48,991 nucleotides of DNA from a virus, in IMG/VR virus record IMGVR_UViG_3300010151_000018, positions 1 through 48,991 of that record. The stretch is one strand, 5' to 3'. Within the stretch, counting starts at the first letter, position 1, and each line of letters begins with the position of its first letter. The position numbers and the translations under genes were made by a program. Positions 783-38,061 of this stretch are shown here, piece by piece. The notes beneath the pieces were generated by a model that was given only the letters and a program-made list of their open reading frames with translations, was not told the origin of the DNA and searched no databases.

Positions 783-3700
783 CTAGTTATTTTTCATTTT
801 AATTATATTATCAATACTACTTATCACTCTCGAGGGTGTGATAGTTTTAGTGCACTCAAACATCCTCTCAGTATTTTTGTGATCAGGACACCACTCCCAA
901 TCTCCTGCATCTAATCTAACTCTGTTAAAACATCCGCTGCATATATCACTATCTGTAGGGATTATTCTTTCGCAGTCAGAAAATTCAGAATAAGGTTTAC
1001 TGAATCCTGATATTAGTATAGTTGGAGTATCTAGTGACCATGATAACCAGCTTAATCCACTTCCTAATCCTATAAAAAATTCAGCATGTCTAATATCATT
1101 AACTCTATCCGCTATTGAGTAGTTTCCTGTTTTATCAATAACACCTTTTAGTGTTCCGCCTAATTTAGAATCATGCCAAGCATCTCCTAACGGCTCATGT
1201 GTTATCATTACAACTTTATATCCCTTAGCGTTTAGATAATCAATTACTGCTTGCCACCCACCAGGGCGATTCCAGTACTTTGCATGTGCAGATGCGTGAG
1301 GAGCTATACATACATACTTACCCTCTATCATAGGAGATCTTTTAGGAAACGATAAGCGAGGTTTTACTTCTTTAAAATCAATACCTAATATATCACATGC
1401 TGCTTGTGATAATGGATATACTCTAAAATCTTTAGAGTGCTCATCATAATTAACAGTGTCATCATCATTATATTTTAACCCTATACTATATCGAGCATAT
1501 ACATTATCTACCTCCGTACCTGGTTCTACGAATTCAAACTCTGGATACTCTTCTTCAAACCACTCGTTATGAAAGGTTGATGTAATAATTTTACATTGAT
1601 GTTTTTTAGCAAATCGCTCAACATGTGGAAACCATGATAGAGTATCACCTATAGCAGTGGAATTTAAATGAATATGTACTCTTCGATTTTTTAAATTTAA
1701 CTGATGTAGGTGGACTAGTTTATTAGTTTTCAAATCTATTACTTTTATTATCCAGTCTACGTAATAAGTCTTACTGCTTTTAGCCCACATATTAGTTTTA
1801 ATTATAGTACTAAACCGTAGATCACCTGTTGATTTATCAATAAATTCAACTCTATAATCCCTAATAGTATTCCCTACAATATTAACTACAGGGCTATCAG
1901 TGTAAGTTACAGTAACTGTATTAGTGTTCTCAGGCTCTTTATAATTTTCCACAAAATCTACAAGAGTAGCCTTACCAATTTCAGCAACTCTATCCCAATT
2001 GAAGTCACGGTGGATAATTTTAGCTTCTTCTAAAGCTCGTTGTTTATGGCTTGTATAGTTTTCAAAGGCATCCCTCATTACTGTAGCTAAATCATCAAAA
2101 TCTGGTTCAGGATATTCACCTAGTCCTGCATTTTTTCCTAAAAAGCTACCATATGAAATATTACTAGCTTCGGCATATCCAGATATTTTTACAGGTAGCC
2201 CTTTACCTTTAGCAAACTCCATTTGACCAGAATCTGCAGAATATATAGATGGTGTTCCACAAGCCATAGCTTCAATTAAAGGTAAATTCCAACCCTCACC
2301 GCGAGCACAAGATAAAAATACATGACCGTTTTTTAAATATGTAACATAGTCTTTACGTGATGGAAAATGTTTAATTTTAATTCGATCATCTACTAAGTTA
2401 TAGTGTTTTAACCTCTCTTCTGTAGTTTTAAATCCGTCCATTTGCTCTCCCCACGGATTATCAATTGAGATTATTAAATCTACAGGCTCTTCAGAAGTAA
2501 ACTCCCTTAGAAAGGTTTCAATAATTTCTTTAGTTGATTTTCTATAATCCCATCTACCAAACAATACGAACTTAAAGCGATCATCTACATAATCCAATAC
2601 TGCTTTAGGTTCTTCAGGAAAGAATACTTTAGTATCTACCCCTTCAGGTACCACTTTTACTTTAGCTGGATCTGCACCTTGATTTATAGTACAGCGTGCT
2701 TGCCACTGTGACGGTACCCATATCTGATCGAATTCTTTTAACTTATCAAAGAACTCTTGTGGCTGTAACGTAGCTTCCCATACATTATATGCGATTTTAG
2801 GACCTATATAATCTTTATAAAATAAGTGACTGTTTGTCTCACTTAACACTAAGTTAACATTATGTGTAAAATCGTTTTTATGATTAGTATATATGGGTTC
2901 AATTATCCATGAGTCTGCAGATCGTAGCGTTTGATTTACTAGTAGTTTTTTATCTGTACCTGTAATATATGATTCATTATTGTGAGGTTCATCTTCCATA
3001 TGCTCCCAAGATGCACCTACTGTACTGTTGTTCACCTTTACATCAATTATTTCTGATAAGGGGTTTAAGAAGTTTCTAGCGTGTTGATTATATCCAGTTG
3101 TTCCAATATACGGGGTATGAGCATATAGTCTTGGAATTTTCATACTATCTCTGTTATCTATATAAATTATAGCTTCTTTATAATATTCTAAAAAATGATC
3201 ATTCCATAAATCCCATGTAATATCTACACCATCAACTGAGCGTACTGTATAATGTTTAAACTTTTTTAAGATAGTATCTCTAAATTTTCTAAATTTCTCT
3301 TTATCGTCAGGAGAGCTAAAATGCCACTCCCCTACTATCTTTTTAACATTTTTTCTTACCCAAGGTAAATTTTCAGTTGAGAAAATATCATACTCTCCTC
3401 CTTCACAGTCAGTCTTCAAAAAATCAATTTTAGTTATGTTATATTCTTTGATAATGTCTTTAAATGGTTTCGCTTTTGCTACTACTGCTTTGTTAATATC
3501 GTTTCCAGCAATCCCAAATGTTTCATGGATTTCAAAATCCTCATCACCTATCCCATAAGGTATAGCTGTAAAAGGCATACCTTTAAGATTACTTTTCAAT
3601 ACCTGTAGTTGATAGGGTGAAGGCTCAATACAATAGATATGTTTATAATTTTTATCTTTTATAGAATAACCAAAAATCCCTATACTTGCGCCAATATCGA

Positions 3701-3836
3701 ATACAATATCTCCTGCTTCAACATCAAACTTATGTAAGTACACATTTTCATCACTGAAAATTTCTTCACCTATATATTCGCGGAACCACTTACTACTTTT
3801 ACCCCAATTAAATTTTTCTAAATTAACTTTATCCAT
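783..3836 (-). CDS. Three-domain FkbM methyltransferase / GT4 glycosyltransferase / BAHT-type heptosyltransferase-like protein
   Basis: This 1017-residue protein has three enzyme-like parts. Residues about 35-210 match the FkbM SAM-dependent methyltransferase fold, with DIGASIG as the SAM loop and FLKTDCEGGEYDIF as the typical acidic motif. Residues about 230-640 are a GT-B glycosyltransferase of the GT4 type, with IWVPSQW, VPEGVDTKVFFP, LFGRWDYRKS and the donor-binding EGWNLPLIEAMACGTPSIY. Residues about 690-1017 resemble the bacterial autotransporter heptosyltransferase (TibC/Aah) family, with AIGDTLSWFPHVERF, the sugar-binding HASAHAKYW region and GLGSGLSWLSWSLDTP. The last part keeps four cysteines, C966, C969, C983 and C995, like the iron finger of that family. 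Known members O-glycosylate Ser on beta-helical surface proteins. By inference it modifies virion fibres or a host surface. The start has AAAGG close to the ATG. It follows a 55-base gap that contains an inverted repeat. Confidence 0.85.
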   Translation of the reverse strand: MDKVNLEKFNWGKSSKWFREYIGEEIFSDENVYLHKFDVEAGDIVFDIGASIGIFGYSIKDKNYKHIYCIEPSPYQLQVLKSNLKGMPFTAIPYGIGDEDFEIHETFGIAGNDINKAVVAKAKPFKDIIKEYNITKIDFLKTDCEGGEYDIFSTENLPWVRKNVKKIVGEWHFSSPDDKEKFRKFRDTILKKFKHYTVRSVDGVDITWDLWNDHFLEYYKEAIIYIDNRDSMKIPRLYAHTPYIGTTGYNQHARNFLNPLSEIIDVKVNNSTVGASWEHMEDEPHNNESYITGTDKKLLVNQTLRSADSWIIEPIYTNHKNDFTHNVNLVLSETNSHLFYKDYIGPKIAYNVWEATLQPQEFFDKLKEFDQIWVPSQWQARCTINQGADPAKVKVVPEGVDTKVFFPEEPKAVLDYVDDRFKFVLFGRWDYRKSTKEIIETFLREFTSEEPVDLIISIDNPWGEQMDGFKTTEERLKHYNLVDDRIKIKHFPSRKDYVTYLKNGHVFLSCARGEGWNLPLIEAMACGTPSIYSADSGQMEFAKGKGLPVKISGYAEASNISYGSFLGKNAGLGEYPEPDFDDLATVMRDAFENYTSHKQRALEEAKIIHRDFNWDRVAEIGKATLVDFVENYKEPENTNTVTVTYTDSPVVNIVGNTIRDYRVEFIDKSTGDLRFSTIIKTNMWAKSSKTYYVDWIIKVIDLKTNKLVHLHQLNLKNRRVHIHLNSTAIGDTLSWFPHVERFAKKHQCKIITSTFHNEWFEEEYPEFEFVEPGTEVDNVYARYSIGLKYNDDDTVNYDEHSKDFRVYPLSQAACDILGIDFKEVKPRLSFPKRSPMIEGKYVCIAPHASAHAKYWNRPGGWQAVIDYLNAKGYKVVMITHEPLGDAWHDSKLGGTLKGVIDKTGNYSIADRVNDIRHAEFFIGLGSGLSWLSWSLDTPTILISGFSKPYSEFSDCERIIPTDSDICSGCFNRVRLDAGDWEWCPDHKNTERMFECTKTITPSRVISSIDNIIKMKNN

Positions 3837-6378: not shown

Positions 6379-6390
6379 CTTATAAATATC
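6379..6390 (-). promoter_or_regulatory. Late-type promoter element GATATTTATAAG
   Basis: On the minus strand GATATTTATAAG overlaps the polymerase stop codon and lies directly before the TAGGA site of the 689-aa gene. It is one of nine related elements in the window. The very short distance to the ribosome site implies a short leader. Confidence 0.5.
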
Positions 6391-7666
6391 AACCAAGCAG
6401 TTTAAAATCAAAAGCTTTCATATTTTTATAATCTCTACCAGTCTTACATTTAACTGGGAATTTCATTAGGTTTGAAATATCTTTCATTATATTAGCTTCG
6501 GATGGATGTAGATCGAATAGCATTGCATCATACGTATATAGTATTAGCTTAGTCTTTTTATCGTTTAAGAATGTGTGTATATCTTTTATAACGTTAATAT
6601 TTTGCTCCGTCTCTACAGCCTGTATTGTATAATTAAATAATGTTTGTGGTTTTATATCACGTGATTTTAAATTATCTCTATAGATTTTACGTTTAAAAAT
6701 TGGTGTTTGTACATAACCTTTACGCTTATAAATATCCCAAACTTCAAAAATATACTTCTTTATTTCACTGAAGAATGGTATATTCTCGAATTCTTTAGGA
6801 ATCCCACCATATAGTATCTTAAACGTTATTGATTTTGATTCATTATATTCATCTTCTGTTAGTAGTTCTTTATCGAAATAGTACTTTCCTAAGTATGCGT
6901 GAATGGAAGTTTTCGGTAATTCGTAATCAATGATATTAGCAATCAATCTTAAGTGATATGCATCATAATCAAATTCAACTAATTTACCATCATCAAATCT
7001 ACTAATATATCGCTCTCTCGTTTCATCATCCTTATTCAAAGCAGCGTAATTTATACCATTAAATGCATTACTAGGACGACCTGTAATAGACCACGGATTA
7101 TACCTTGTATGCTCCAGTGTATTATCAGTTGTATATAACCCAGCAGATTCGATTTGCTTTAATTGGGGCAACATTACTTCATTATACTCTCTGAATCCAG
7201 GCTCTTTGCAGAGATGTAGTATAGGTAATATTATATCTTTAATTTTAGTACAATACTCTTTATGCTTAAGTAGTGGTATTATATCATTGATATTATCTAA
7301 CTTCCAACACCGGTTGTAGTAATATGTATGTGCAGTTGTATATAGCTCTGATATCTTAATGCTTGTAGATGTTGAAAAGTAATACAGTGCATCTATGTTT
7401 ACTGCATTCTGTATTCCACTACTGTACGTATATGTTAATCTGTCATTATTAATGAATGTCAGATCTGTGATGTTAAATACTTTATCGGAATGGTTTACTG
7501 GAATAATGAATTCTTTCTGCGTATCTATTATATAGATGTACAGTAGTGATACACGACTGAATACACGGTGCTTTTTGACATCACTGTATACCGGTATAAC
7601 TATGGATTCAGAATCCATATACTGAGCTTTTAGCTCACATAAAATTTGATCGTTATCTACAATCAT
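6389..7666 (-). CDS. Divergent family A DNA polymerase (polymerase domain without a recognisable exonuclease)
   Basis: Residues about 190-425 match the PolI/T7 polymerase domain. A TGRPSN motif (195-200) precedes motif A (FDYDAYHLR, catalytic Asp at D233), motif B (KSITFKILYGG, with K278, F282 and Y286) and motif C (LYTYDAMLF, D380). Both metal-binding Asp residues and the O-helix Lys/Phe/Tyr are kept. Three normally conserved positions differ when aligned by eye to E. coli PolI: E710 is His238, R754 is Tyr274 and E883 is Ala381. The N-terminal ~170 residues show no convincing 3'-5' exonuclease motifs, though strands such as YIYIIDTQKEFIIPV could be a degenerate remnant. At 425 aa it is short for the family. 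T4 itself uses a family B polymerase. An AAAGG lies six bases before the start, and a TATATTTAAGTAT element precedes it. The role could be replication or repair, or activity may be reduced. Confidence 0.85.
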   Translation of the reverse strand: MIVDNDQILCELKAQYMDSESIVIPVYSDVKKHRVFSRVSLLYIYIIDTQKEFIIPVNHSDKVFNITDLTFINNDRLTYTYSSGIQNAVNIDALYYFSTSTSIKISELYTTAHTYYYNRCWKLDNINDIIPLLKHKEYCTKIKDIILPILHLCKEPGFREYNEVMLPQLKQIESAGLYTTDNTLEHTRYNPWSITGRPSNAFNGINYAALNKDDETRERYISRFDDGKLVEFDYDAYHLRLIANIIDYELPKTSIHAYLGKYYFDKELLTEDEYNESKSITFKILYGGIPKEFENIPFFSEIKKYIFEVWDIYKRKGYVQTPIFKRKIYRDNLKSRDIKPQTLFNYTIQAVETEQNINVIKDIHTFLNDKKTKLILYTYDAMLFDLHPSEANIMKDISNLMKFPVKCKTGRDYKNMKAFDFKLLG

Positions 7667-16443: not shown

Positions 16444-18555
16444 TTATTCACCAAAAGTTGCACCGGTTGGCATAACATTAAAGTCGACTACAATGAATTC
16501 CGCTGCTTTTGCTGGCTGAATGTATATATCTCCCTTCATGATGTTTCTATCAATGATATCAGGTGTGTTATTCGTGTCATCCATTACAACTTTAAACGCA
16601 TATAATCCGTTATTCTGCTGTACTCTTTCCATATACGGAACAACAGTTGATAAGAATCTATTTCTAGTTTCATTTGTATTATTTTCGAATACAAGATACT
16701 TACTAGTAGATGCAATGAACTTTTTAAGGTTAATTAATAATCTTCGTACATTTACTCTATCTAATGCAGAAGACTTCTTTTGTAAAGTCTTTTGACCCCA
16801 TACTACAACTCCTTGTCCTGGGAATGTTGCTAATGGGTTGATACGTCCTGAGTATAGAGTGTCTCGATTTGTATGAGTTAATTTACGTTCAGCTCTAACT
16901 GCTACATCAACTCCACCTCTATTTAACCCAGCAGGTGCATACCATTCATGTGCAACTTTATCGTTAAATGCAAGTACACCTGGTAATACAGATCCAGCTG
17001 GAACCCATATAAGCTTATTTAGCTGATTGTCAGGTATCTGAACCCATGGCCAGTACATCGCTGCATAGCTTGAGTTATAATCTGCTGCTTCACCAACTGC
17101 AGTTGCAATTGATGATCCATACCCTACAGGATCTATTACTGCAAAACAGTCACCTCTAGCTTCAGCAACTTTCACTGCTTTATCTACGATAGGTGAGTGC
17201 ATGTTTTGATTAGCTCCTGGAATTAATATCATATTAATATCGTATTCATCTTGATTTGCAAGTAAATTTAATGCTTGTGTATAAGACGATCCACCGTTTG
17301 CATTATCTGCAGAACTTAAATCGTATCCTTGACAGTTACCCTCTACTATATTTTCATAGAATTTTGCTGGTCCAAGAATATTACCATCTGCACCGCCTAG
17401 GAATGAACCTGATCCAGCTGTTGGTAATGATTGTGATGCAGCTGCTACTCTAACATCTCCATTCTCATCTAAATAATCGACAGTTTGTTTAAGAACTTCA
17501 ACACGAATATACCGTGATTTATTTGAGTATGATCCTGATAATTGTAAGTATGGATCAGCTGTGGTACCACGTACTGTGTACACCATATCACCGATAACTT
17601 TACTAATATAGTTTGTTGCATTTGGATCTAATGATAGGTTACTCCATGTTTCAAGAGGTATCTTAGCTACACTACTATCATTACCACGTCTTACAACTAG
17701 ATTAAATGTACCTGTGTTATTGTCTACATTTGTAACTTCCCATCTAATGTTATCTTTCGAGCCACTCTCTAGTACATTGTTAGTACCTTCTGATGCTTGA
17801 TAATTATTCAGATTATCACCTTCTGATAACGTTCTTACTTTAAATGCTGTTTCTGTTGCTCCATTAGTACCATTTGCAAATGATATTAAATCTGTAGTAA
17901 TAGTACCAGAACCAGTTTCAATTGAAATTGTTTGAACTCCATTATCTGTTGCTGTAAATTCTACTTGTCCTGCTCCAGATACAGCGGTTAATGCTAGTGC
18001 AGCTACAGTGTTTACTTTAGTTACAAAGTTAGTAACAGCTGCTCCTACGGTAGAGCCTGTTTGATAATAAAATATCGGAGACTCATCTACTGGTACTGAA
18101 ACTTGATCACTTGCTATGAAACGATACTCTACACTACCTTGTGTTATCTGTATCTCACTTCCATCTGCTGCAAATGGATTGGCTGCGTCTACAGATGCTG
18201 TAAATGCTCCTGATGCTGCTGTACCTGTACTCGGTGTCTCACCAGTAGCTACAGAACTAGAAGCATGGCTAAACCCATCTCCTGCAATTCTAACTACAGT
18301 TAATGGTCCACCGTTCTTAAGATATTGTTCCGCTGTATGGGATGTTAAATATTGTTGGTAGTCACTACCACTTTTGAACGTATTTCCAAATAGATCTACG
18401 TATTGTGCATATGATGTAACCTGCGTAGGGATACCTACAGGTCCTTTAACTGTTGGACCTACAATTGCTGCACCAATCTCACCAACTCCTTGTGGTAAGA
18501 ATGATAAGTCATTTTCACGCGTAAATACGCCGGGACTTATAATTTTTTCAGCCAT
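16444..18555 (-). CDS. Contractile tail sheath protein (T4 gp18-like)
   Basis: A 703-residue protein. The N-terminus (ISPGVFTRENDLSFLPQG followed by IGAAIVGPTVKGP) and the C-terminal domain (VWGQKTLQKKSSALDRVNVRRL, then DIYIQPAKAAEFIVVDF) are hallmarks of T4-type sheath proteins. The middle part (about 110-400) holds Ala/Thr/Gly-rich, variable surface domains. The subunits surround the tube and contract during infection. The gene has its own late-type element, an AGGAG site eight bases from the ATG and a 97-base leader. It precedes the tube gene as in T4. Confidence 0.93.
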   Translation of the reverse strand: MAEKIISPGVFTRENDLSFLPQGVGEIGAAIVGPTVKGPVGIPTQVTSYAQYVDLFGNTFKSGSDYQQYLTSHTAEQYLKNGGPLTVVRIAGDGFSHASSSVATGETPSTGTAASGAFTASVDAANPFAADGSEIQITQGSVEYRFIASDQVSVPVDESPIFYYQTGSTVGAAVTNFVTKVNTVAALALTAVSGAGQVEFTATDNGVQTISIETGSGTITTDLISFANGTNGATETAFKVRTLSEGDNLNNYQASEGTNNVLESGSKDNIRWEVTNVDNNTGTFNLVVRRGNDSSVAKIPLETWSNLSLDPNATNYISKVIGDMVYTVRGTTADPYLQLSGSYSNKSRYIRVEVLKQTVDYLDENGDVRVAAASQSLPTAGSGSFLGGADGNILGPAKFYENIVEGNCQGYDLSSADNANGGSSYTQALNLLANQDEYDINMILIPGANQNMHSPIVDKAVKVAEARGDCFAVIDPVGYGSSIATAVGEAADYNSSYAAMYWPWVQIPDNQLNKLIWVPAGSVLPGVLAFNDKVAHEWYAPAGLNRGGVDVAVRAERKLTHTNRDTLYSGRINPLATFPGQGVVVWGQKTLQKKSSALDRVNVRRLLINLKKFIASTSKYLVFENNTNETRNRFLSTVVPYMERVQQNNGLYAFKVVMDDTNNTPDIIDRNIMKGDIYIQPAKAAEFIVVDFNVMPTGATFGE

Positions 18556-23982: not shown

Positions 23983-26900
23983 CTATACGCGACTGCTCGT
24001 TTCAGGTACTAACGGACTATCTTTGAGCGGCATTGCTCTAACTGCAGCTGGATCAAATACCACTGTGTCGTAGGAGCGTTCTATGTTCGTAACACCTACA
24101 CTTCCTCCTAAGGAAACATTTGATAACATGTTATTTGACCTAGTAGCTGGTATTATAACATCATCTATAGGGGTATTATAGTAAGGGAAATGAGCGATTA
24201 AATTAGGTGCTCCCATGAGTGCACGAGGATTTGCATACTCATGTTGGTCAAGTAGTCTACTTCGGAAGTACTCCATATCCTCTACTTCTTCATACCAAAC
24301 TTGGTCAGAGCTCGGATCCGTGTCTAAGTGTGCATATACAGATGGGTTAATTCGCTGCATCGCTTTTTTTAAAGGTATTCTATCAAGCAGCTCGGTACCA
24401 AATACACGTTTTGTGTCATGCATAACTGGATCCCCGTATACGCTTTCATGTAATGAGCTTTGTGTTGTGTATGGTGTGCAGTTTGTTGTATCAGGTATAT
24501 AGTTACGATATGCGTGTGTTTGCAGCCAATCTTTAGCTTCTGCTTGTGTCAAATCTCTCTTCTTCTGAGCGTATAATGCTAGTAGACCAACAACCTGGGG
24601 TCCTGCCATTGAAGTTCCGCTCCTTTGTCCGTATTTAGAATATATTCTACCTGATCTACCTTGCGCTGTTGATGTCTCTTTCATGATAAATGCTCCGATA
24701 TTAGATTGTGTAAGATAGGTATCAAGTTTTAAAGAAGCGCCTCCTGAGAGCAGGCCTGGGGTAGTATATCTAGACTTAGGATAATCCCTTTTACTCATAT
24801 CGTACATATGTTCAATACAATCTGGTTGCATGAAATTATAAGGTATGCTTGATAGTATATTCACACCAGGTGCCCATATATCTACACGTGGTCCAGTATT
24901 ACTAAAAGTTGCTTTTTGATCAACAGCCATTCTATCAGCTGACCGTAGGGTTCGTATGGCTCGATTATAACTAGTTACCTTCATTGAAGGCTTTAAATGA
25001 TTTAATGGTCCACCCATATTTAACCAAGCTTCATGCGCTACGCTATTATAATAGGATTGATTCTCATAATCACCGGGAAAAAATGAACTAGTTCGCGGGG
25101 AAAATACTTCTCCATTTTGGTGTGGCTTGTACCCGAATGTACCAAATGGCTCTTCGTATTTACTTAATCGGTGACCTGGCCAGTCAAGTTCTTCTGTTAT
25201 ATATTGATGCGCGATAGAACTATGGATACCATGAACGTGTAGTGTATCATCAGGGTAGTTTGGCCAACCTTCTGAATTAGCGTACGCTTGAACTCCTGTT
25301 TTATCCCAATCGATGTCTCTATCACCGCGCTCGTCGAAATACATGGCAGGGTCTTTTAGAAAAGTGCAATCTGAAGCGCCTACGCATATTACCTTATCGT
25401 CTGCCACCAGTGCTGTTGGTAAATCACCCATTGGCATCCATCCCATGGTATGCACATTTTCCTGTACCAGCACACCATCTTTATATTCGTCCCAAGATCG
25501 TGTGTGTGCATAGAAACCTGGGTCCTGCCAGTAGTTTGTAGAATATCGTAGTGCATCTCCATCTATACCGCTTGCAAAGTAAGTGTCTGGGCCGGGATCA
25601 ATAAATGGTGCGGTACCTGATGCAGTAGGATATGCAAATCCATGATTGGGATCTGAAAATAGAACCGATGTGTTCTCTACACTACAAGTATTTTCAAAAT
25701 CTGCGGATTCTCGTAATGCAGATATTGAATTCATTACAGAATGACCGTTACCAGATGAATAAACCCAGATAGCACCTTCTTCCATAGATTGATCTCTGAA
25801 TAGAACTTTTGCATATCGCTTATTAATCATATCACTTATATACCAATGTCGATTGAATTTGCCGTAATTATAAGGGCGCTGGGGTTTGTCAGCAACTGAT
25901 CCAGTGCCAGGGAATATTGTACCGTTAGTACCAAACCTGTACATATAACGTTGCCATTTATAGCGACCTAGGAAGTTTTGCATAGTTTGTAGTTGAGAGC
26001 GTAGAGCGGGATTGCCTTCTTGAGATAGTGAACCAGTATATAGTTCCCATGGACTATATGACTTACCTATTACTGGTAATGATACTTGGAAGTTGTCGAT
26101 AATTTCAGTTCCAGGACCTGCAACTGAGCCTGTTTGTACGGATACATAATGTGATAGTAAGTCTGCAGCTTTATTTAATTCCAAGCGGACCCAGAGGTTT
26201 TTGGACCCTAATTTCTCATTAGTATTATATGCTAACCCCAGATCACTCATATTACTATCAAATTTAGCTTTGAGATTATCCATAGAAACTGTAGGTTCAA
26301 CACTATCATATGCAAAATAATAATCGAGAGTGGGTATACTATTTGGCCCACTATATGTAGACTCTGAATCTGATGGTATATCAAGGGGATCACTCGCTAT
26401 GAAGCGAAATAAAGTTGTAGTCATACCGTCTGGTGTTGTGCGATATGTATCAAGACTCCAACCTGGCACGATTACTGATACTTCTTCAGATGTGAATGCA
26501 GCTGTTGATGCTGTATTTGTATTACCAACTGGATACATACCGCTAAAACCATCGACTCTCGTAAGGTGTTGTCTATTATTTGTTGCAGTGTGAGTTAGTT
26601 CCCATGGGTTATTAACGAGGGCATCAATCGCATCTACGTTTTCTACAGGATTTGTACTTTCCCAAGTATACCCTGTTTCAACGGATACCTCTCCATCAAG
26701 GCCTACCACTTCCCTATCCGGCTGCGGCACTACATCATAGCTACTAGTAGTTGCTCTAACTAAGTCATTATAAAGTGATGGAGCTCCAGTATTTCTACCA
26801 AATCCATATGAGTTGTTTATTATAAGAGGATTGTCGATACCGGCTGCTTTCTTTAATATTTGTAAGTAATAAACGAGCTCCTCGTCACTGGCATCATTCC

Positions 26901-27570
26901 ATCTAAATCCTGAATACCATTTAGAGGCTAAATGGTAGACATTAGCTTCATGTGCCCAACCCATGGTACGGCCGGAAACAGTCCCAGCTGTATGTGTACC
27001 GTGCTCATGATCTGGTACATAAGCGCACATTGAGCTCGAGAATCCTACCGTATGTCCTGTTGCAGGATCTATATAATCCATACTACCAGTAACATCTATC
27101 CCTTCAGGTGTAGGGTTCTCATTTTTTATATCTTTATAAATATCCCCCCTTACATAAGACACTTCTGGATTACTGATAATCCCCTCCTCTCCAATATCTT
27201 CTACGCTATTTACTACATCAGGAAAGTCTTGACTTTCAATCAAGTGACTGATATAGCTATGCATTTGTGCAAACGTAAAGTCTCGGGCGCGGAATTCATC
27301 CCATCCATCTGAACCTGATAACACTAATCGATCTATATGCTTTGCTAAATAATTCCAGTCTACCAGTTGAACACGTGTGTCTGCGGTCTCTGTGTTAGTA
27401 AATTCGTAGTGAGTCGGATCAATAGCTCTATCAATAGCCATTACATCTACATCCTTACCTGTCCAGCCGTTCTGTGCTACAGTTGATGATCCAGTTATCC
27501 ATTGTGGTGCGAACCTGGAGTAATTGTGTAGGTTTGAAAATCCATTATACATATCATTTAATTTTTCCAT
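23983..27570 (-). CDS. Subtilisin-like serine protease (S8) in fibre cluster
   Basis: A 1195-residue protein with a complete S8 set: Asp in DVMAIDRAI (D47), His in HEHGTHTAG (H190), the NNSYG strand (about 252-256), oxyanion Asn in WVYSSGNGH (N608) and Ser in GTSMAGP (S987). Other subtilase blocks are present (VICVGASD and VDIWAPGVNILSSIP). Insertions of about 350 residues between NNSYG and N608, and about 380 between N608 and S987, make it far longer than a plain subtilase. There is no signal peptide. It is cotranscribed with fibre genes, with an AGGAG site, so it is probably a virion-bound enzyme that acts on host surface proteins or processes the fibres. The last ~200 residues (after S987) have no recognised domain. 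Confidence 0.88.
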   Translation of the reverse strand: MEKLNDMYNGFSNLHNYSRFAPQWITGSSTVAQNGWTGKDVDVMAIDRAIDPTHYEFTNTETADTRVQLVDWNYLAKHIDRLVLSGSDGWDEFRARDFTFAQMHSYISHLIESQDFPDVVNSVEDIGEEGIISNPEVSYVRGDIYKDIKNENPTPEGIDVTGSMDYIDPATGHTVGFSSSMCAYVPDHEHGTHTAGTVSGRTMGWAHEANVYHLASKWYSGFRWNDASDEELVYYLQILKKAAGIDNPLIINNSYGFGRNTGAPSLYNDLVRATTSSYDVVPQPDREVVGLDGEVSVETGYTWESTNPVENVDAIDALVNNPWELTHTATNNRQHLTRVDGFSGMYPVGNTNTASTAAFTSEEVSVIVPGWSLDTYRTTPDGMTTTLFRFIASDPLDIPSDSESTYSGPNSIPTLDYYFAYDSVEPTVSMDNLKAKFDSNMSDLGLAYNTNEKLGSKNLWVRLELNKAADLLSHYVSVQTGSVAGPGTEIIDNFQVSLPVIGKSYSPWELYTGSLSQEGNPALRSQLQTMQNFLGRYKWQRYMYRFGTNGTIFPGTGSVADKPQRPYNYGKFNRHWYISDMINKRYAKVLFRDQSMEEGAIWVYSSGNGHSVMNSISALRESADFENTCSVENTSVLFSDPNHGFAYPTASGTAPFIDPGPDTYFASGIDGDALRYSTNYWQDPGFYAHTRSWDEYKDGVLVQENVHTMGWMPMGDLPTALVADDKVICVGASDCTFLKDPAMYFDERGDRDIDWDKTGVQAYANSEGWPNYPDDTLHVHGIHSSIAHQYITEELDWPGHRLSKYEEPFGTFGYKPHQNGEVFSPRTSSFFPGDYENQSYYNSVAHEAWLNMGGPLNHLKPSMKVTSYNRAIRTLRSADRMAVDQKATFSNTGPRVDIWAPGVNILSSIPYNFMQPDCIEHMYDMSKRDYPKSRYTTPGLLSGGASLKLDTYLTQSNIGAFIMKETSTAQGRSGRIYSKYGQRSGTSMAGPQVVGLLALYAQKKRDLTQAEAKDWLQTHAYRNYIPDTTNCTPYTTQSSLHESVYGDPVMHDTKRVFGTELLDRIPLKKAMQRINPSVYAHLDTDPSSDQVWYEEVEDMEYFRSRLLDQHEYANPRALMGAPNLIAHFPYYNTPIDDVIIPATRSNNMLSNVSLGGSVGVTNIERSYDTVVFDPAAVRAMPLKDSPLVPETSSRV

Positions 27571-29772: not shown

Positions 29773-32700
29773 CTAACTTTGTGGCGGTTGACCTGCTAAT
29801 AGAAATGTTGATGTGTCAAGTGGTATCTTTACCCACTTATCATTATATGGTTGGAACATGTATAGTTCCCCTTCATTTTGATGTTCTGTTAATGTTTCTT
29901 GTATGTATACTAGGGATTCGTTTGTGCTTCCAAAATACGTACTTGAGTTATGTGCTGAGGGTGTAGTGTTAGCACCTAGTTCTGCAGAATAGTATCCACG
30001 GGTAACCTCAATGATATGCCAAGAAAATGATGATCCATCAGTTTCTGAAGTAACCTCATTAACATACATGTATTCACTACCAATTAATATCACGTCACCT
30101 TGAACAGGCCATCGTAATGATATACCATTTGATGCTAGCCACGCGTTATTATCTCCATCTCCATCATTATAATATTCAAGCTTGATGGTTGTTTCCGTCT
30201 CACTAATCGCGTTATTGTTTGCGATCCATACCCCTGTTAATGTACTATAGTCAGTTGTTACATCTAATACATCAGCTAAGAATGCCACTTCACCACCTCG
30301 TAGCGATCCAGTGTTGACAGCTTGTAGATCAGCAGATGATGTAAACATTATCGGTGTTACCAATGTATTAAATGGTAAACTAGATCGTGGGCTATCAACA
30401 ATTCCGTTTATTAATAATGATGGTGTGTGAAATTCTATTTTAGAATCAGCATCTCTTGTAATTATGCGGACTAATTTTTCTGATGTTACATCTCGATTAT
30501 ATGTAGTTATTTCAGATGCAATATCTGTCGCGAGTGGTGTGCCATTCCATTTTAATACACCGTTATCATTATATAATGTACTTGTAGTATTATTTGGTAT
30601 ACCAGCTAGAGTTATCCCTCTACTAACAACATCATTATTAAATCTAGCTACATTGTCTACCCATAAATCAGACTGTACATATACTTCACCAATATTACCA
30701 TCTAAAGATAACGGGGATAGTTGCAATGTATAATTATTAGAAGTGATTATACCAGGCTCTTCTGAATCAATAAAGAACTCAGCTGAATTTGCTAATTTAA
30801 ATGAGCCAGAAACATATACATCTTGCTTAATATCTACATCATCATGTAATTCGATAGAGCTAGATACTGATAGGTGAGATGATGATATAAAAGCATCACC
30901 GGAATGGTTAATACCTAGTATTAACTTTTTAGATTCACTCTCAAACCTAATCTCAGGTAAACTTCCAGCTGATGCAGATAGATGAATCATAGCTTTAGGT
31001 ACAGCAGTGTTTATACCTAATCTCGGAATACCTCCTGTAAACGTAAACCAATCATGTGATAATTCGGTACCATACTCTAGATCTAATTCATTGTAATTAA
31101 CATCCATATAAGTGGATTGACCAGTTAATGAGAATGCAGTATATGGTAGTACTTGATTATCATATGAAGCAACGTCTGTGACGAGTGTTTTAACTAACTC
31201 ATCACTAGATGTATGTATACTAACAGATCCAGATATATTAAGGTCATTTATAGTAACCTTTTCTGAATCTACTGTAGTAAATATACCATCACCTGTACCA
31301 CTAATACCGGTTAACCTAGAGCCATCACCGGTAAATACCATTGCACTTATATTCCCAGCTGCTGTTATATTATCTGCTATTATATCACCAGCTGCTGTTA
31401 TATTATCAGCTGCTTGTACTGATCCAGCTGCAATTTTTCCAACTGTATATGTAGATTGTTTAGCGTCGATGTGCCCACTTGTTACAGTGTATCCTGAGTG
31501 GAATGTACTATCACCGGTTACTATAACGTTACCTGTGTGTATAGTATCACTCTCTACATCGTTAGCCCCTATTATACTAAATCTGCGGAGATCTAAATCC
31601 TGTGTAGCTTCGTGATTACCTAAATTATCACCTCCAGCGGTAATTGCAGCTAATGAATATGATATATCAGGGAATCCATCCAGCGCTAAATTACTAGCAG
31701 TAATATCATGACTTGCACTTATATTTCCTGATGCACTTATATTTCCTGATGTAATTATATTTCCTGTACTAGCGAAGGTGTTACCAAAGATTACATCACC
31801 TTGTATAAACGAAGATGCAGATATTGTTCCATCTACTTGTACATTACCTCCAAGAATAGCAGCTGATCCATCACTGTCAATTGCGTTAAGTATAAGGCTG
31901 TTTGCAACTATACCACCTTTCACATCTATACTTGCAAGTGAGGCTGTTCCGCCTGATATTACAAAGTCACCACCAGGAGGTTTTATACCTGTAAGTTTAG
32001 ATCCATCACCATAAAAATATGGAGCTGATATGGTATCGCTTGCGCTAATCGTACTTGCTGTAAATGGTCCTGAAGCGTGTAGTGTTGATCCTGTTAATGT
32101 TGTAATTGCATCTTTTAAGTATACTGCTCTACCATCTGATAATGTAAATATAATATCCTCGCGATTAAAATCTGCGTCTGTGACATGCGCGCCAGCTGGA
32201 CCTGTTACTCCAGCTGGACCTGTATTTCCTCTAGATCCCTGTGGTCCTACAGGTCCATTGAGACCTATAGGTCCTCGAATTTGGCCTACGTTCGACCAAG
32301 ATGTTCCGTTAAAAACTATACCTTCACCAGCTGTTGCATCTATTCCATTTGCATTACCAGTATCTGAACATATCCACATATGACCGGCAAGCATATCAGT
32401 TAAGCCAGTTATATATGCAATTGTACCTGTACCCTGTATTTCAGCTGAAGCTCCAGCTGCTCCAGTTGATCCAGTTGATCCTTGAGCTCCTGTACTTCCT
32501 TGACTTCCTTCAAATCCTCTCTCACCTCGAAGTTCAAGTCTAGCATCAGTTAATGTTACTTGGTTTGAATCACTATCAGTAAATACTATATCATCGTTAT
32601 TGAACGCTGCATCAATTATACTTGGACCGGCTGTTCCTTGAGCTCCAGTTGATCCTTGAGCTCCAGTTGATCCAGTGTCTCCTTTAACACCGCTTGTACC

Positions 32701-35700
32701 ACTTGAACCATGTGATCCAGCTGCTCCAGTTGATCCATGTGAACCAGCTGCACCAGTTGATCCTGTATCTCCTTTTACTGGTCCGATTACTGTAGTCAGT
32801 GATGCATCTTGATGATTGAGGGTTATCATCCCTGTAGCGGAGTCATATATTGCATCTGCCCAACCGAGTACTGTTAGATCAGTGATTGAACTCCAGGTTC
32901 CACCACTTTTCCTAAATATTTTATCTGTTGATGTATCGTAATAAAAATCATTGTTACTACCTCCTGCATCACCAGGTGTAGCACCTCCGCTATACCACTG
33001 TGTACCTGCGATTCCATCTGTTCCACTTGTACCACTTGATCCAGCTGCACCAGTTGATCCAGTTGATCCTGTGTCTCCTTTAGATCCTTGTGGCCCTGTA
33101 GATCCATCATCACCTTTAGTTCCTTGAGGTCCCGTAGATCCTTGCGGTCCTGTAGATCCTGTATCTCCTTTAACACCACTTGTTCCACTTGAACCACTTG
33201 ATCCGTGAGAACCAACTGCTCCAGTTGATCCTACATCTCCTTTAGATCCACTTGTTCCACTTGTTCCATGAGATCCAGCTGCTCCAGCTGCTCCAGTTGT
33301 TCCACTCGATCCACTCGTTCCACCTGAACCAGTTGATCCTGTGCTTCCTTGAGATCCTATTGGTCCTTCTGGGCCTATAGGTCCTCGAATAGCTCCTATG
33401 TTTGTCCACTCTGCACCATCCCATACAATACCATTACCAGGAACAGCAGTTATATCTCCTACAGTTGCAGAATCGGATGCTATATACATATCACCAGCTG
33501 ATAGGCCTGCTGGATTTAGATCAATTATGTCAATTAGCCTTTTTGTTCCTTGAATTAAGGTAGATGCTCCATCTGCTCCACTTGTACCACTTGAACCATG
33601 TGATCCAGCTACTCCAGTGTCTCCTTTAGTTCCTTGTAATCCAGTTGATCCGGTTAATCCTGTAGATCCTTGCGGTCCTGTAGATCCTGTATCTCCTTTA
33701 ACACCACTTGTTCCACTTGATCCGTGTGTTCCACTTGATCCGCTTGATCCGCTTGATCCGCTTGTACCATGTGTTCCTTGAATTCCTTGTTCTCCTGTAG
33801 ACCCTTGATCTCCTTTAGTTCCACTTGTTCCGCTTGATCCATCTGTTCCACTTGATCCATCTGTTCCACTTGTACCATGTGTTCCTGTAGATCCTTGAAT
33901 TCCTTCTATTCCTTGTAGTCCTTGAATTCCTTGAATTCCAATTGGTCCTACGTCACCTGTATCTCCTTTAACACCGCTTGAACCACTTGAACCACTTGTT
34001 CCATGTGTTCCAGCTGATCCTGGATCACCTTTAACTCCACTTGAACCACTTGAACCGCTTGATCCGTGAGATCCATCTGCACCGGTTGATCCTATATCTC
34101 CTTTAGATCCACTTGTACCACTTGTACCATGTGATCCAGCTGATCCAGTTGATCCAGTTGATCCAGTTGATCCTTGTAGTCCAGTTGATCCTTGTGGTCC
34201 AACAGGACCTCGTACAGCTCCTACATTAGTCCAGGTTGTACCCCACACAATACCATCACCAATAACAGCTGATATTCCATTTGCTTCAGCATTATCTGAA
34301 CATATCCACATATCACCAGCTGTTAGATCTTCTTGATCTAACCCAGTTATATATGCAATTGTACCTGTACCCTTAACTGTAGTAGCTGCTCCGTCTACAC
34401 CACTTGTACCATGTGATCCAGCTGCTCCAGTTGATCCAGGTAATCCTGTAGATCCTTGTGGTCCTGTAGATCCAGCATCACCTTTAGTTCCTTGTGGTCC
34501 TATAGGTCCTTGAGATCCATCCACCCCACTTGTTCCGCTTGATCCATCTGTTCCGCTTGATCCATCTGAACCTGCATCACCTTTAACTCCACTTGTTCCA
34601 CTTGAACCATGTGAGCCATCTGAACCTGCATCACCTTTAGTTCCTTGTGGTCCTATAGGTCCTTCTATTCCTTGAATTCCTTGAATTCCTTGAATTCCAA
34701 TTGGTCCGTCTTGCCCAGTTGATCCTGTGTCTCCTTTAGATCCTTGTGGTCCTTCAGGTCCTCGTGGTCCTTGAATAGCTCCTACATTAGTCCACCTACC
34801 TCCATTGTATACAATACCATCACCAACTTGAGCAGATACTCCGGTTGCTGAAACAGCTTGGTTTGAACATATCCACATATCACCTGGAGATGCTTCTGAC
34901 GTATTTATATTTCCAGTTATATATTCAATTGTGCCTGTACCTATAATTGTAGTAGATGTACCATCTGCCCCAACTGAACCTGTTGATCCAGTTGATCCGG
35001 TTAATCCTTGAGGTCCTACTTCTCCTTGAATTCCTTGAATTCCTTGAATTCCAACTGCTCCAGTTGATCCTGTATCTCCTTTAACTCCACTCGTTCCACT
35101 CGTTCCGGCTTCTCCAGTTGATCCAGTTGATCCAGTTGATCCAGCGTCTCCTTTAGTTCCTTGTGGTCCTATAGGTCCTTCAGGACCCACCTCTCCTTGA
35201 ATTCCTTGAATTCCTTGAATTCCAACTGCTCCAGTTGATCCTGTGTCTCCTTTAACACCACTTGTACCACTTGAGCCACTCGATCCAGCTGCTCCAGTTG
35301 ATCCAGTTGTTCCTATTGGTCCTTCTGGTCCTATAGGTCCTCGGATAGGTCCTATATTAGTCCACTCTGTCCCATCCCATACAATACCATTACCAGGTGC
35401 AGTTGCTTGCGCGTTAATAATTCCTGTATCTGATGTTATATACATATCACCATTTGATAATGTTGCTGTGTCTATATCATCAATCTCTTGTGTCGTTTTC
35501 GTTCCTTGGATGTAGGTAGACGCTCCATCTTGCCCAGTTGATCCGGTTAATCCAGTTGATCCGGTTAATCCTTGAGGCCCTACTTCTCCTTGAATTCCTT
35601 GAATTCCTTGAATTCCAACTGCTCCTGTTGATCCTGTGTCTCCTTTAACACCACTCGTTCCACTCGTTCCGGCTTCTCCAGTTGATCCAGTTGATCCAGT

Positions 35701-38061
35701 TGATCCTGCGTCACCTGTGTCTCCTTTAGATCCTTGAGCTCCTGTAGATCCTTGAGGTCCTACTTCTCCTTGAATTCCTTGAATTCCTTGAATTCCAACT
35801 GCTCCAGTTGATCCTGTGTCTCCTTTAACTCCACTCGTTCCACTCGTTCCAGCTTGTCCAGTTGATCCGGTTAATCCTGTTGAACCAGTTGATCCTGTGT
35901 CTCCTTTAGTTCCTTGTGGTCCTTGTGGTCCTCGTGGTCCCTGTATTTGTCCTACATTAGTCCACCCTCTTTCTGTACTATAAGCTATTCCGTCACCAGG
36001 ATCAGCTGAGACTCCACTCGCTTCTCCTGAATTAGTACATATCCACATATCACCAGGCTCTGGGTTAGGTAAACTAGTTATATATGTAATTGTATCAGAT
36101 CCTTTAATTTGAGTAGATGTTCCGTCTGCTCCTGCTGTCCCGCTTGATCCACTCGATCCATCTGTTCCACTCGATCCATCTGTACCACTTGTTCCACTCG
36201 ATCCAGTTGATCCTGCGTCACCTGTGTCTCCTTTAGTTCCTTGTGGTCCTATAGGTCCTTCAGGACCCACCTCTCCTTGAATTCCTTGTATTCCTTGAAT
36301 TCCAATTGGTCCTACGTCACCTGTGTCTCCTTTAACTCCACTTGTACCACTTGATCCATGTGATCCAGTTGATCCAGTTGATCCAGTTGATCCAGTTGAT
36401 CCTGTGTCTCCTTTAGTTCCTTGTGGTCCTATAGGTCCTTCAGGTCCTACTTCTCCTTGTATTCCTTGTATTCCTTGAATTCCAATTGGTCCTACGTCAC
36501 CTGTATCACCTTTAGTTCCTTGAGGTCCCGTAGATCCTTGCGGTCCTATAGGTCCTTGAATAGCACCTACATTAGACCAAGCTGATCCATCCCATACAAT
36601 ACCATTACCAGGGTTACCAATTACACCACTTGCATCACCTGAATTAGTACATATCCACATATCACCTGCTACTAGATCTGCTGAAGGTAAACTAGTTATA
36701 TGTTGAATTGTATTAGATCCTTTGATGAAAGTAGATGCTCCATCTGCTCCACTTGTACCGCTTGAACCATGTGATCCATGTGAGCCATCTGAGCCATCTG
36801 AGCCATCTGATCCTGCTTCTCCTATGTCTCCTTTAGATCCTTGTGGTCCTGCAGGACCTACAGGTCCTTCTATTCCTTGTAGTCCTTGAATTCCTTGAAT
36901 TCCAACTGCTCCTGTTGATCCTGTGTCTCCTTTAACTCCACTCGTTCCACTCGTTCCAGCTTGTCCAGTTGATCCAGTTGATCCTGCGTCACCTGTGTCT
37001 CCTTTAGTTCCTTGTGGTCCTATAGGTCCTTCAGGACCCACCTCTCCTTGAATTCCTTGAATTCCTTGAGTTCCAACTGCTCCAGTTGATCCTGTGTCTC
37101 CTTTAGTTCCTTGTGGTCCTATAGGTCCTTGAATAGGTCCTACATTAGACCAAGCTGATCCATCCCATACAATACCATTACCAGGTATAGTATAGTAACC
37201 GTTAACATCTCCTGTATCAGATGCTATATACATATCACCATTTGATAAGGTACCTGTATCTAGGAGATTAATCTCTTCTATTGTTTTCGTTCCTTGGATG
37301 TAGGTAGACGCTCCAGCAGGTCCTGTACTTCCTTGTATTCCTTGAATTCCAGGTGGTCCAGGGTCTCCTTGATCTCCTTTAGATCCTTGTGCGCCTGTTG
37401 ATCCTGCTGATCCAACTATAGGTCCAATTGTATGCTGAAAAGCATCGGAACGAGTAATCACGAGATTATCACTGTCAAAGTTTATGTCTTGTATACCAAC
37501 TCCTGGAGATCCTGCTGATCCAGTATCTCCTTTAGTTCCTTGTGGACCCACGTATAGGTCTTCTGGAAATGTAAAAGTTATAACAGTCCCTGAACCTTGT
37601 GGAGTAAAGTCTACTGTTGGGGTACCTCCTAATGGACCTACAGTAACATCTGGATTAACTGATATATCAGGTGTTATATCTGCAATAAAATCTTCATAGG
37701 TAAGTCCTTCGGGATCCTCTTGTAAGGTTAACCATATTTCGAAAGCAGATAAGCCGTCAATACCGTCAGAAGGTGTTAAATCATCTCCTGTATCTACAGC
37801 AATCTTTGCCCAGTTTTCAACTACATCAAAGTTTGTTGGATCACTGCCTGTATACATGTGGTAGAATCCAGTTGCTTCATCTTTCACAATACATCCAGGA
37901 GATGCGTGATTACTAGTTATAATAGTAGCTACCTCGGCAATGGTAGGTACTACCCTAACGTTACCTTCAATACTATTAATATGTACTAAAGGAGCTGTAC
38001 CACCGTATATGTATATACCAGCACCGTAATTAATACTATAATGGCTTGAATCCATTCCCAT
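29773..38061 (-). CDS. Giant collagen-like fibre protein, 2762 aa
   Basis: The N-terminal ~170 residues are a non-collagen head that ends in GLSAFEIWLTLQEDPEGLTY, a segment common at the start of phage collagen-like proteins. From about residue 175 to 1955 the protein is Gly-X-Y repeats (GPQGTKGDTGSTG, GIQGIQGIQGE, GSSGTSGVKGD), broken by eight copies of a ~58-residue module with GDMWI or GDMYI, then GDGIVW or GNGIVWDG, then W(S/T)N(V/I)G. From about 1960 to the end is a beta-rich tail with ASGNISASGNISASHDITAS and VFTGDGSRLTGI motifs seen in phage fibre tips. A trimeric triple-helix fibre with a C-terminal receptor-binding tip is the natural reading. It has AAGGAG nine bases upstream and touches the 882-aa gene. 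Thr/Ser are very frequent in the X and Y positions. Confidence 0.88.
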   Translation of the reverse strand: MGMDSSHYSINYGAGIYIYGGTAPLVHINSIEGNVRVVPTIAEVATIITSNHASPGCIVKDEATGFYHMYTGSDPTNFDVVENWAKIAVDTGDDLTPSDGIDGLSAFEIWLTLQEDPEGLTYEDFIADITPDISVNPDVTVGPLGGTPTVDFTPQGSGTVITFTFPEDLYVGPQGTKGDTGSAGSPGVGIQDINFDSDNLVITRSDAFQHTIGPIVGSAGSTGAQGSKGDQGDPGPPGIQGIQGSTGPAGASTYIQGTKTIEEINLLDTGTLSNGDMYIASDTGDVNGYYTIPGNGIVWDGSAWSNVGPIQGPIGPQGTKGDTGSTGAVGTQGIQGIQGEVGPEGPIGPQGTKGDTGDAGSTGSTGQAGTSGTSGVKGDTGSTGAVGIQGIQGLQGIEGPVGPAGPQGSKGDIGEAGSDGSDGSDGSHGSHGSSGTSGADGASTFIKGSNTIQHITSLPSADLVAGDMWICTNSGDASGVIGNPGNGIVWDGSAWSNVGAIQGPIGPQGSTGPQGTKGDTGDVGPIGIQGIQGIQGEVGPEGPIGPQGTKGDTGSTGSTGSTGSTGSHGSSGTSGVKGDTGDVGPIGIQGIQGIQGEVGPEGPIGPQGTKGDTGDAGSTGSSGTSGTDGSSGTDGSSGSSGTAGADGTSTQIKGSDTITYITSLPNPEPGDMWICTNSGEASGVSADPGDGIAYSTERGWTNVGQIQGPRGPQGPQGTKGDTGSTGSTGLTGSTGQAGTSGTSGVKGDTGSTGAVGIQGIQGIQGEVGPQGSTGAQGSKGDTGDAGSTGSTGSTGEAGTSGTSGVKGDTGSTGAVGIQGIQGIQGEVGPQGLTGSTGLTGSTGQDGASTYIQGTKTTQEIDDIDTATLSNGDMYITSDTGIINAQATAPGNGIVWDGTEWTNIGPIRGPIGPEGPIGTTGSTGAAGSSGSSGTSGVKGDTGSTGAVGIQGIQGIQGEVGPEGPIGPQGTKGDAGSTGSTGSTGEAGTSGTSGVKGDTGSTGAVGIQGIQGIQGEVGPQGLTGSTGSTGSVGADGTSTTIIGTGTIEYITGNINTSEASPGDMWICSNQAVSATGVSAQVGDGIVYNGGRWTNVGAIQGPRGPEGPQGSKGDTGSTGQDGPIGIQGIQGIQGIEGPIGPQGTKGDAGSDGSHGSSGTSGVKGDAGSDGSSGTDGSSGTSGVDGSQGPIGPQGTKGDAGSTGPQGSTGLPGSTGAAGSHGTSGVDGAATTVKGTGTIAYITGLDQEDLTAGDMWICSDNAEANGISAVIGDGIVWGTTWTNVGAVRGPVGPQGSTGLQGSTGSTGSTGSAGSHGTSGTSGSKGDIGSTGADGSHGSSGSSGSSGVKGDPGSAGTHGTSGSSGSSGVKGDTGDVGPIGIQGIQGLQGIEGIQGSTGTHGTSGTDGSSGTDGSSGTSGTKGDQGSTGEQGIQGTHGTSGSSGSSGSSGTHGSSGTSGVKGDTGSTGPQGSTGLTGSTGLQGTKGDTGVAGSHGSSGTSGADGASTLIQGTKRLIDIIDLNPAGLSAGDMYIASDSATVGDITAVPGNGIVWDGAEWTNIGAIRGPIGPEGPIGSQGSTGSTGSGGTSGSSGTTGAAGAAGSHGTSGTSGSKGDVGSTGAVGSHGSSGSSGTSGVKGDTGSTGPQGSTGPQGTKGDDGSTGPQGSKGDTGSTGSTGAAGSSGTSGTDGIAGTQWYSGGATPGDAGGSNNDFYYDTSTDKIFRKSGGTWSSITDLTVLGWADAIYDSATGMITLNHQDASLTTVIGPVKGDTGSTGAAGSHGSTGAAGSHGSSGTSGVKGDTGSTGAQGSTGAQGTAGPSIIDAAFNNDDIVFTDSDSNQVTLTDARLELRGERGFEGSQGSTGAQGSTGSTGAAGASAEIQGTGTIAYITGLTDMLAGHMWICSDTGNANGIDATAGEGIVFNGTSWSNVGQIRGPIGLNGPVGPQGSRGNTGPAGVTGPAGAHVTDADFNREDIIFTLSDGRAVYLKDAITTLTGSTLHASGPFTASTISASDTISAPYFYGDGSKLTGIKPPGGDFVISGGTASLASIDVKGGIVANSLILNAIDSDGSAAILGGNVQVDGTISASSFIQGDVIFGNTFASTGNIITSGNISASGNISASHDITASNLALDGFPDISYSLAAITAGGDNLGNHEATQDLDLRRFSIIGANDVESDTIHTGNVIVTGDSTFHSGYTVTSGHIDAKQSTYTVGKIAAGSVQAADNITAAGDIIADNITAAGNISAMVFTGDGSRLTGISGTGDGIFTTVDSEKVTINDLNISGSVSIHTSSDELVKTLVTDVASYDNQVLPYTAFSLTGQSTYMDVNYNELDLEYGTELSHDWFTFTGGIPRLGINTAVPKAMIHLSASAGSLPEIRFESESKKLILGINHSGDAFISSSHLSVSSSIELHDDVDIKQDVYVSGSFKLANSAEFFIDSEEPGIITSNNYTLQLSPLSLDGNIGEVYVQSDLWVDNVARFNNDVVSRGITLAGIPNNTTSTLYNDNGVLKWNGTPLATDIASEITTYNRDVTSEKLVRIITRDADSKIEFHTPSLLINGIVDSPRSSLPFNTLVTPIMFTSSADLQAVNTGSLRGGEVAFLADVLDVTTDYSTLTGVWIANNNAISETETTIKLEYYNDGDGDNNAWLASNGISLRWPVQGDVILIGSEYMYVNEVTSETDGSSFSWHIIEVTRGYYSAELGANTTPSAHNSSTYFGSTNESLVYIQETLTEHQNEGELYMFQPYNDKWVKIPLDTSTFLLAGQPPQS
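32190..37540 (-). repeat. Collagen Gly-X-Y repeat tract with interspersed modules (coding)
   Basis: This is the repeat part of the 2762-aa gene. At DNA level near-identical blocks recur, notably tandem GGAATTCAAGGAATTCAAGG units coding for GIQGIQGIQG and GATCAACTGGA units coding for GSTGSTG. Eight 58-residue modules interrupt it near 37140-37310, 36560-36740, 35950-36120, 35350-35520, 34785-34960, 34215-34385, 33390-33565 and 32280-32450. Confidence 0.9.

Follow-up and report, generated by a model that had tools for sequence, protein, structure and literature searches.

Why would a phage encode an enzyme of a class that has been described, until now, for the adhesins of bacteria, and on what would such an enzyme act? 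The question is raised by the IMG/VR virus record IMGVR_UViG_3300010151_000018, which we analyzed over its 48,991 bases (the window). A single open frame at 783-3836 on the minus strand encodes, from an ATG start, a protein of 1017 amino acids (aa), P0001, in which an FkbM methyltransferase, a GT4 glycosyltransferase and a TibC/Aah-type heptosyltransferase are fused. Our answer is that the phages probably attach O-linked glycans to tail fibres of their own, which are collagen-like and rich in Ser/Thr. In this reading, to which we give a probability of about 0.55, we infer acceptor, donor, sugar order and benefit.

A first-pass annotation, made from the letters alone, had proposed that three sugar-modification modules are fused in P0001, and the Pfam and NCBIfam matches within the one frame bear this out. 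The N-terminal FkbM module (about aa 1-232; 3141-3836, minus strand) matches PF05050 (E = 7.6e-12, aa 47-189) and TIGR01444 (51.9 bits, cut-off 37.7). The GT4 module (about aa 233-640; 1917-3140, minus strand), from which one of the scans described below was run, matches PF00534 (E = 2.1e-9, aa 418-543). The TibC/Aah-type module (about aa 641-1017; 783-1916, minus strand), with a beta-barrel, a GT-B catalytic part and an iron finger, matches PF01075 (E = 3.8e-9) and, over aa 659-1011, TIGR04414 (E = 4.7e-95, 318.7 bits, curated cut-off 200). TIGR04414 is the family of autotransporter strand-loop-strand O-heptosyltransferases, TibC/Aah. Two relatives, L030 and L034, score 333.4 and 336.0 bits against it, and the Pfam model TibC_1st gives 15.4 bits on P0001, below its cut-off of 27.

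The solved structure closest to P0001 by sequence in a PDB search is TibC itself (4rap, E = 1e-60, aa 662-1009). We set aside a fold prediction for full-length P0001 (pLDDT 52.2, pTM 0.44), and used an AlphaFold model of aa 638-1017 made with 39 sequences (pLDDT 88.8, pTM 0.87), for which the top Foldseek match is again TibC (E = 2.9e-33, TM 0.85 across 379 columns). The first-pass annotation had proposed this comparison, and the predicted module fits TibC over its whole length, including the N-terminal beta-barrel and the overall fold. The residue roles described for TibC include Asp110 as catalytic base and Thr226, Lys230, Arg286 and Trp305 in donor binding (PMC4358343). The P0001 counterparts of Asp110, Lys230, Arg286 and Trp305 are D731 (1644-1646, minus strand), K853, R911 and W930, and in an alignment of 84 rows (P0001 and 83 viral proteins) the Asp, Lys and Trp are conserved in 84/84 rows and the Arg in 80/84. 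The four-cysteine finger that had been likened to that of TibC/Aah also holds: C966, C969, C983 and C995 (852-941, minus strand) align to TibC C339, C342, C358 and C370, and each is kept in 84/84 rows, with iron binding itself predicted from sequence. Among the protein O-heptosyltransferases of TibC/Aah type, the module thus probably falls in a branch found in phages, with heptose transfer as its predicted activity.

How common is this enzyme? Searching IMG/VR with the TibC-type module turned up 179 coding loci, from which we took the best 80, and a second scan, with the GT4 module, turned up 53. The loci from both scans, plus Mel-JY01, a pair of huge phages and a single contig from a metagenome-assembled genome (MAG), make up our locus set, with the window excluded. 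The enzyme is carried by at least 136 viral loci in this set, which form 73 groups at 95% identity.

The evidence for the fibres as acceptors comes from asking which genes accompany the enzyme. We call an open reading frame (ORF) collagen-like when it contains 12 or more Gly-X-Y triplets that stand in runs no shorter than 6. Among the 36 enzyme-bearing groups with at least 6 kb of upstream sequence, the locus includes such an ORF in 33, upstream of the enzyme in 28 of them, and in 22/36 groups the locus collagen has at least 50% Ser/Thr at the X and Y positions. As a control, we took the 80 loci whose tail tube is closest to that of the window. The enzyme is absent from the locus in all 80. 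Once identical tubes had been removed, 33 of these enzyme-free controls had 6 kb or more upstream of the tube, and only one of the 33 (L111) has collagen. Restricting the groups to those with a sheath gives 27/28 vs. 1/33 enzyme-free, and at the level of entire contigs (20 kb or longer) PF01391 is present in 19/21 with the enzyme (window counted) vs. 2/17 without it. The PF01391-negative enzyme contigs, G023 and G027, have less than 2.3 kb upstream of the enzyme; Mel-JY01 and the huge phage LR756501 are both positive. In 11 of the 36 groups the collagen of the locus is Ser/Thr-poor; when we looked at the rest of the contig for four of these 11 (L011, L014, L016 and L049), three had collagen with 65-69% Ser/Thr elsewhere.

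We can also ask the reverse, whether a given type of collagen predicts the enzyme, and here all contig counts are among the matches listed. Scanning IMG/VR for DNA encoding a GTSGTSGTSGTS-like repeat gave at least 80 loci and 51 contigs of at least 20 kb, of which 50 were searched for TIGR04414. The enzyme is above cut-off in 18/50 of these Gly-Thr-Ser contigs, again often fused to or beside glycosyltransferase (GT) and FkbM genes, and one further contig has a match below it. Five of the 50 loci lack an ORF of at least 12 triplets, and the enzyme is absent from all five. A matched scan for GPxGPxGPxGPx gave 44 contigs of at least 20 kb: the enzyme is found in 1/27 of those with a collagen-like ORF and in 0/17 of those without. 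The single carrier is the L235 contig, which also has a collagen with 95% Ser/Thr (L437). The difference between 18/50 and 1/27 has a Fisher p = 0.0017 among the matches listed; leaving out the two of the 18 positive contigs that were already in the locus set, 16/48 vs. 1/27 gives p = 0.0033.

The position of the gene agrees with these associations. In the relatives, fibre genes are usually followed by GT genes, then by the TibC-type gene, a gene of 82-83 aa, tail sheath and tail tube, and the sheath gene is at most 3.5 kb downstream of the enzyme in 49/60 groups with enough sequence. The window has the tail module common to enzyme-bearing relatives (15925-18555, minus strand; sheath 16444-18555, tube 15925-16413), and this module recurs, with sheath relatives in 75 loci and tube relatives in 70. 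The window is an exception in that its enzyme gene is on the opposite side of the tail cluster from that in the relatives.

Within the window, two collagen-like fibres on the minus strand are candidate acceptors. The best candidate is the 882-aa fibre (38063-40711), for which we counted 101 Gly-X-Y triplets with 76% Ser/Thr at X and Y, Gly-Thr-Ser and Gly-Ser-Ser contributing 33/101 each. The 2762-aa fibre (29773-38061) has 395 triplets and 43% Ser/Thr, and a 633-aa fibre (40721-42622, minus strand) has a short collagen-like stretch. Thus, the long Ser/Thr-rich repeat fibres described in the first-pass annotation are present (the 882-aa and 2762-aa proteins), but they are not of beta-repeat type, as both are built of Gly-X-Y triplets. 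The repetitive beta substrate that it implied did not stand either: the strand-loop-strand target repeats, TIGR04415, were found in 0/25 records, with an E. coli control positive, and on this count we rejected targets of the AIDA/TibA type. Two mapped Ser sites of TibA are located before Gly or after Thr (PMC4358343), a context loosely like the fibre's Thr-Ser-Gly, which we keep as a lead only. What the first-pass annotation proposed as fibre self-glycosylation is, given the co-occurrence in both directions and the usual place of the relatives' gene between fibre and tail sheath genes, the best-supported reading, and it is partly supported, with collagen-like instead of beta-repeat fibres as the acceptor.

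The three modules are also repeatedly found together. The GT4 and TibC-type modules share one frame in 53/53 loci from the GT4-module scan, and of the 73 groups, 42 lack a P0001-type GT4, 29 are fused to it, and 2 are fused to both FkbM and GT4. Outside P0001, the triple FkbM-GT4-TibC-type fusion occurs in L231 and L252, a sibling 93% identical to P0001 (L005) is without precisely the FkbM module, and in L228, L229 and L242 an FkbM gene is directly upstream of the GT4 fusion. In stand-alone cassettes the GT and FkbM genes adjoin, and in the 735-kb phage LR756501 a 315-aa GT4 type is fused to the TibC-type module. This recurrent joining points to a single shared pathway. The three FkbM fusions (P0001, L231, L252) require three changes on the tree, which speaks weakly against a single origin, as the L252 branch is very long and its row was length-trimmed. 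The 315-aa GT4 and the TibC-type modules shared a cluster because the huge-phage fusion L003 contains both, and we do not treat them as one family. Two contigs, G454 and G483 (L401 and L402), have two full TibC-type genes each, flanked by shorter partial matches; in each pair one gene is GT4-fused (about 700 aa) and the other is stand-alone (396 and 415 aa).

In the mechanism that we propose, P0001 would be a phage-encoded glycan-building enzyme acting on the virion inside the infected cell. The TibC-type module would put heptose, or a similar sugar from an ADP-sugar, on many Ser (perhaps Thr) hydroxyls of the fibres, with the first sugar on the Ser of Gly-Thr-Ser and Gly-Ser-Ser triplets; the GT4 module would then lengthen the glycan by another sugar, and the FkbM module would cap it through O-methylation. 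The relatives would obtain the same activities from genes that adjoin each other in the stretch from the fibre genes to the tail sheath gene, and the benefit may be to protect or tune the fibres. Whether this amounts to a widespread and previously unnamed phage self-glycosylation system, in which TibC-type, GT4 and FkbM modules, fused or in neighbouring genes, dress the fibre along its whole extent with short methylated glycans and phages with HldE-like genes help make the donor, is in our judgement an even bet.

Several observations weigh against fibre glycosylation. In the window the fibres are about 26 kb away from the enzyme gene. The locus collagen is solely Ser/Thr-poor in 11/36 groups and missing in 3/36 (L004, L254, L022), the collagen on the L049 contig tops out at 45% Ser/Thr, and 32/50 of the Gly-Thr-Ser contigs among the matches listed have no enzyme, many of these being fragments. 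LR756504, one of the huge phages, carries the enzyme but gives no match to PF01391, and the acceptor there must be different. The co-occurrence tests, in both directions, ignore relatedness and host group. The mapped TibC sites are Ser in beta-helix loops, not in collagen, and the TibC thumb is a beta-hairpin whose hydrophobic tip, Phe265-Val266, is required for the dodecamer, with Asp at either position disrupting the dodecamer and killing activity (PMC4358343). The tip aligns to Asp885-Ala886 in P0001, and our model is helical there. For this reason we do not assume ring assembly, and we speak of a phage variant of the family: the C-terminal module belongs to the bacterial autotransporter heptosyltransferases (BAHT) by sequence, fold and active site, and not by thumb tip or autotransporter partner.

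The rival explanation that survives best keeps the TibC fold and the protein acceptor, and changes the sugar: the module would be a protein glycosyltransferase using a donor other than ADP-heptose. It draws on the site of TibC Thr226, where P0001 has Ser849 (across the 84 rows, 81 have Ser and 3 have Thr), and on the site of Pro300, a residue that governs donor stereochoice in TibC (PMC4358343); here 81 rows have Gly, 2 have Ser and 1 has Ala. More divergent viral members also differ at the Lys230, Arg286 and Trp305 sites, in an alignment of 26 rows of which 6 are without Cys and are partial matches to other GTs, left in the counts. P0001, in contrast, retains the equivalents of all three residues, and Arg286 of TibC touches the donor adenine (PMC4358343). 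The pathway genes for ADP-heptose speak to both sides. They are patchy, with HldE-like kinases in 6/24 enzyme-bearing records, HldE adenylyltransferase-like genes in 3/25 and a GmhA-like gene in 1/24, yet the presence of the kinases in 6/24 carriers counts against another donor. Altogether, we regard a different donor as rather unlikely.

The HldE-like genes possibly represent a phage-made supply of ADP-heptose. We downgraded this idea to partly supported, since the HldE/HldD matches are all below the curated cut-offs and the GmhA-like gene is confined to 1/24 records. The window, itself a fragment, has none of these genes (HldE-like or GmhA-like), and therefore the host may supply the donor. 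Examples of the HldE-like genes in large enzyme-bearing phage contigs, scoring about 125 bits for the heptose-7-phosphate kinase and 102 bits for the adenylyltransferase, are L092:10519-11265, L093:8063-8467 and L104:2142-2894. In the 636-kb LR756504.1 (W03; L004:11941-13110), a stand-alone 389-aa TibC-type gene is accompanied by a GmhA-like gene, with no collagen match.

Could the enzyme instead remodel the host surface during infection, as the first-pass annotation also suggested, altering lipopolysaccharide (LPS), capsule or a surface protein, for instance to block superinfection, with the collagen link reflecting shared phage clades? The fold of the TibC-type module is related in Foldseek to the LPS heptosyltransferases WaaC and heptosyltransferase II, and FkbM and GT4 are frequent in polysaccharide clusters. 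The LPS heptosyltransferase models, however, stay far under their cut-offs on P0001 (RfaQ 32.7 bits against 467, heptosyltransferase III 21.4 against 170.2, heptosyltransferase I 18.9 against 185.3), while TIGR04414 is well over its own. The enzyme genes are located in the tail cluster, and among the matches listed the reverse test ties the enzyme to Ser/Thr-type and not to Pro-type collagen. A host capsule operon was not seen around the enzyme, whose neighbours are phage tail genes. We consider host remodelling unlikely.

The hosts for much of the group are inferred to be Bacteroidota. The window's tail tube is closest to that of Mel-JY01 (52.5%), followed by Flavobacterium phage immuto (47.5%), and these neighbours, together with a contig binned in a Winogradskyella sp. 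MAG, point to such hosts. That contig (L089; JABDKL010000107.1, 17 kb) is the only locus found in a scan of species genomes for the enzyme. It shows synteny to the tail cassette of the phages (collagen, GTs, FkbM, TibC-type, sheath, tube), and is therefore of phage origin and gives a pointer to the host. In a set of 395 Bacteroidota genomes, one is above the family cut-off, namely the centre genome of the set, and the weaker matches in 78 others we take by score to be ordinary GT9 enzymes. On these two grounds a recent host-gene origin of the enzyme is rejected.

That the acceptor is some other virion protein (such as the sheath, the receptor-binding tip of a fibre or a spike of beta structure by the cassette), with the collagen a mere neighbour, we find quite improbable: the constant place beside sheath and fibre genes, the carriers with Ser/Thr-poor or no collagen and the beta-helical nature of known TibC-type targets (PMC4358343) would fit it, but the TIGR04415 target repeat is in 0/25 records and the Ser/Thr bias of the associated collagen, among the matches listed, would be left unexplained.

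Other genes of the cassette and of the window deserve mention. The GT25 family includes collagen galactosyltransferases, such as GLT25D1. A cassette GT of 660-1130 aa (L034:6254-8965, L014:4971-8354, L089:1826-5167) has a weak C-terminal match to GT25 (PF01755, E from 2e-4 to 0.011, below cut-off), and being sub-threshold only, a collagen-type transferase in the cassette is kept as a lead. A NodU-like carbamoyltransferase gene inside the cassette (L049:8296-9933, L075:8314-9939 and L025; 153.7 bits, cut-off 1000) hints at carbamoylated sugars. The window, between its fibre and sheath genes, encodes a 1195-aa protein with a subtilase domain (23983-27570, minus strand; PF00082, E = 5e-16). A 425-aa protein (6389-7666, minus strand), with a C-terminal DNA polymerase A match as its sole match (PF00476, E = 1.1e-9, aa 299-401), may be a short or split polymerase.

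If fibre glycosylation is true, phages would be using, on the collagen-like fibres of their tails, a kind of enzyme described up to now for the adhesins of bacteria, and a compact set of fused glycosyltransferases active on collagen-like sequence would become available. It would bear on the protease resistance of the fibres, on host binding, and on why such repeats are rich in Ser and Thr. It also offers a concrete enzyme, acceptor and mass shift open to testing.

How does this compare with known systems? In the open-licence literature, as judged by titles and abstract openings, we found no account of a phage TibC/Aah enzyme or of phage collagen glycosylation. TibC and Aah themselves (BAHT; TIGR04414; PDB 4RAP, 4RB4) are alike in whole-module sequence, fold, the catalytic Asp, the Lys/Arg/Trp set and the four-Cys iron finger. 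Unlike them, P0001 is found in a phage genome, is fused to GT4 and FkbM, has a changed thumb tip, and has collagen-like fibres as partners, with the strand-loop-strand target repeats absent. The BclA-type spore glycoproteins of Bacillus also have collagen-like repeats with O-linked methylated sugars, but on a spore surface and with other glycosyltransferases. Phage virion proteins that bear glycans are known from mycobacteriophages, in the capsid and tail tube, as cited in PMC12619734; there the glycans are on C-termini and the hosts are different, and the passages concerned name neither collagen fibres nor TibC-type enzymes. Finally, the mimivirus protein L230, a collagen hydroxylase/glucosyltransferase, has another fold and another chemistry (glucose on hydroxylysine) and a eukaryotic host; the likeness is that a viral enzyme glycosylates a collagen-like protein of the same virus (PMC9614988).

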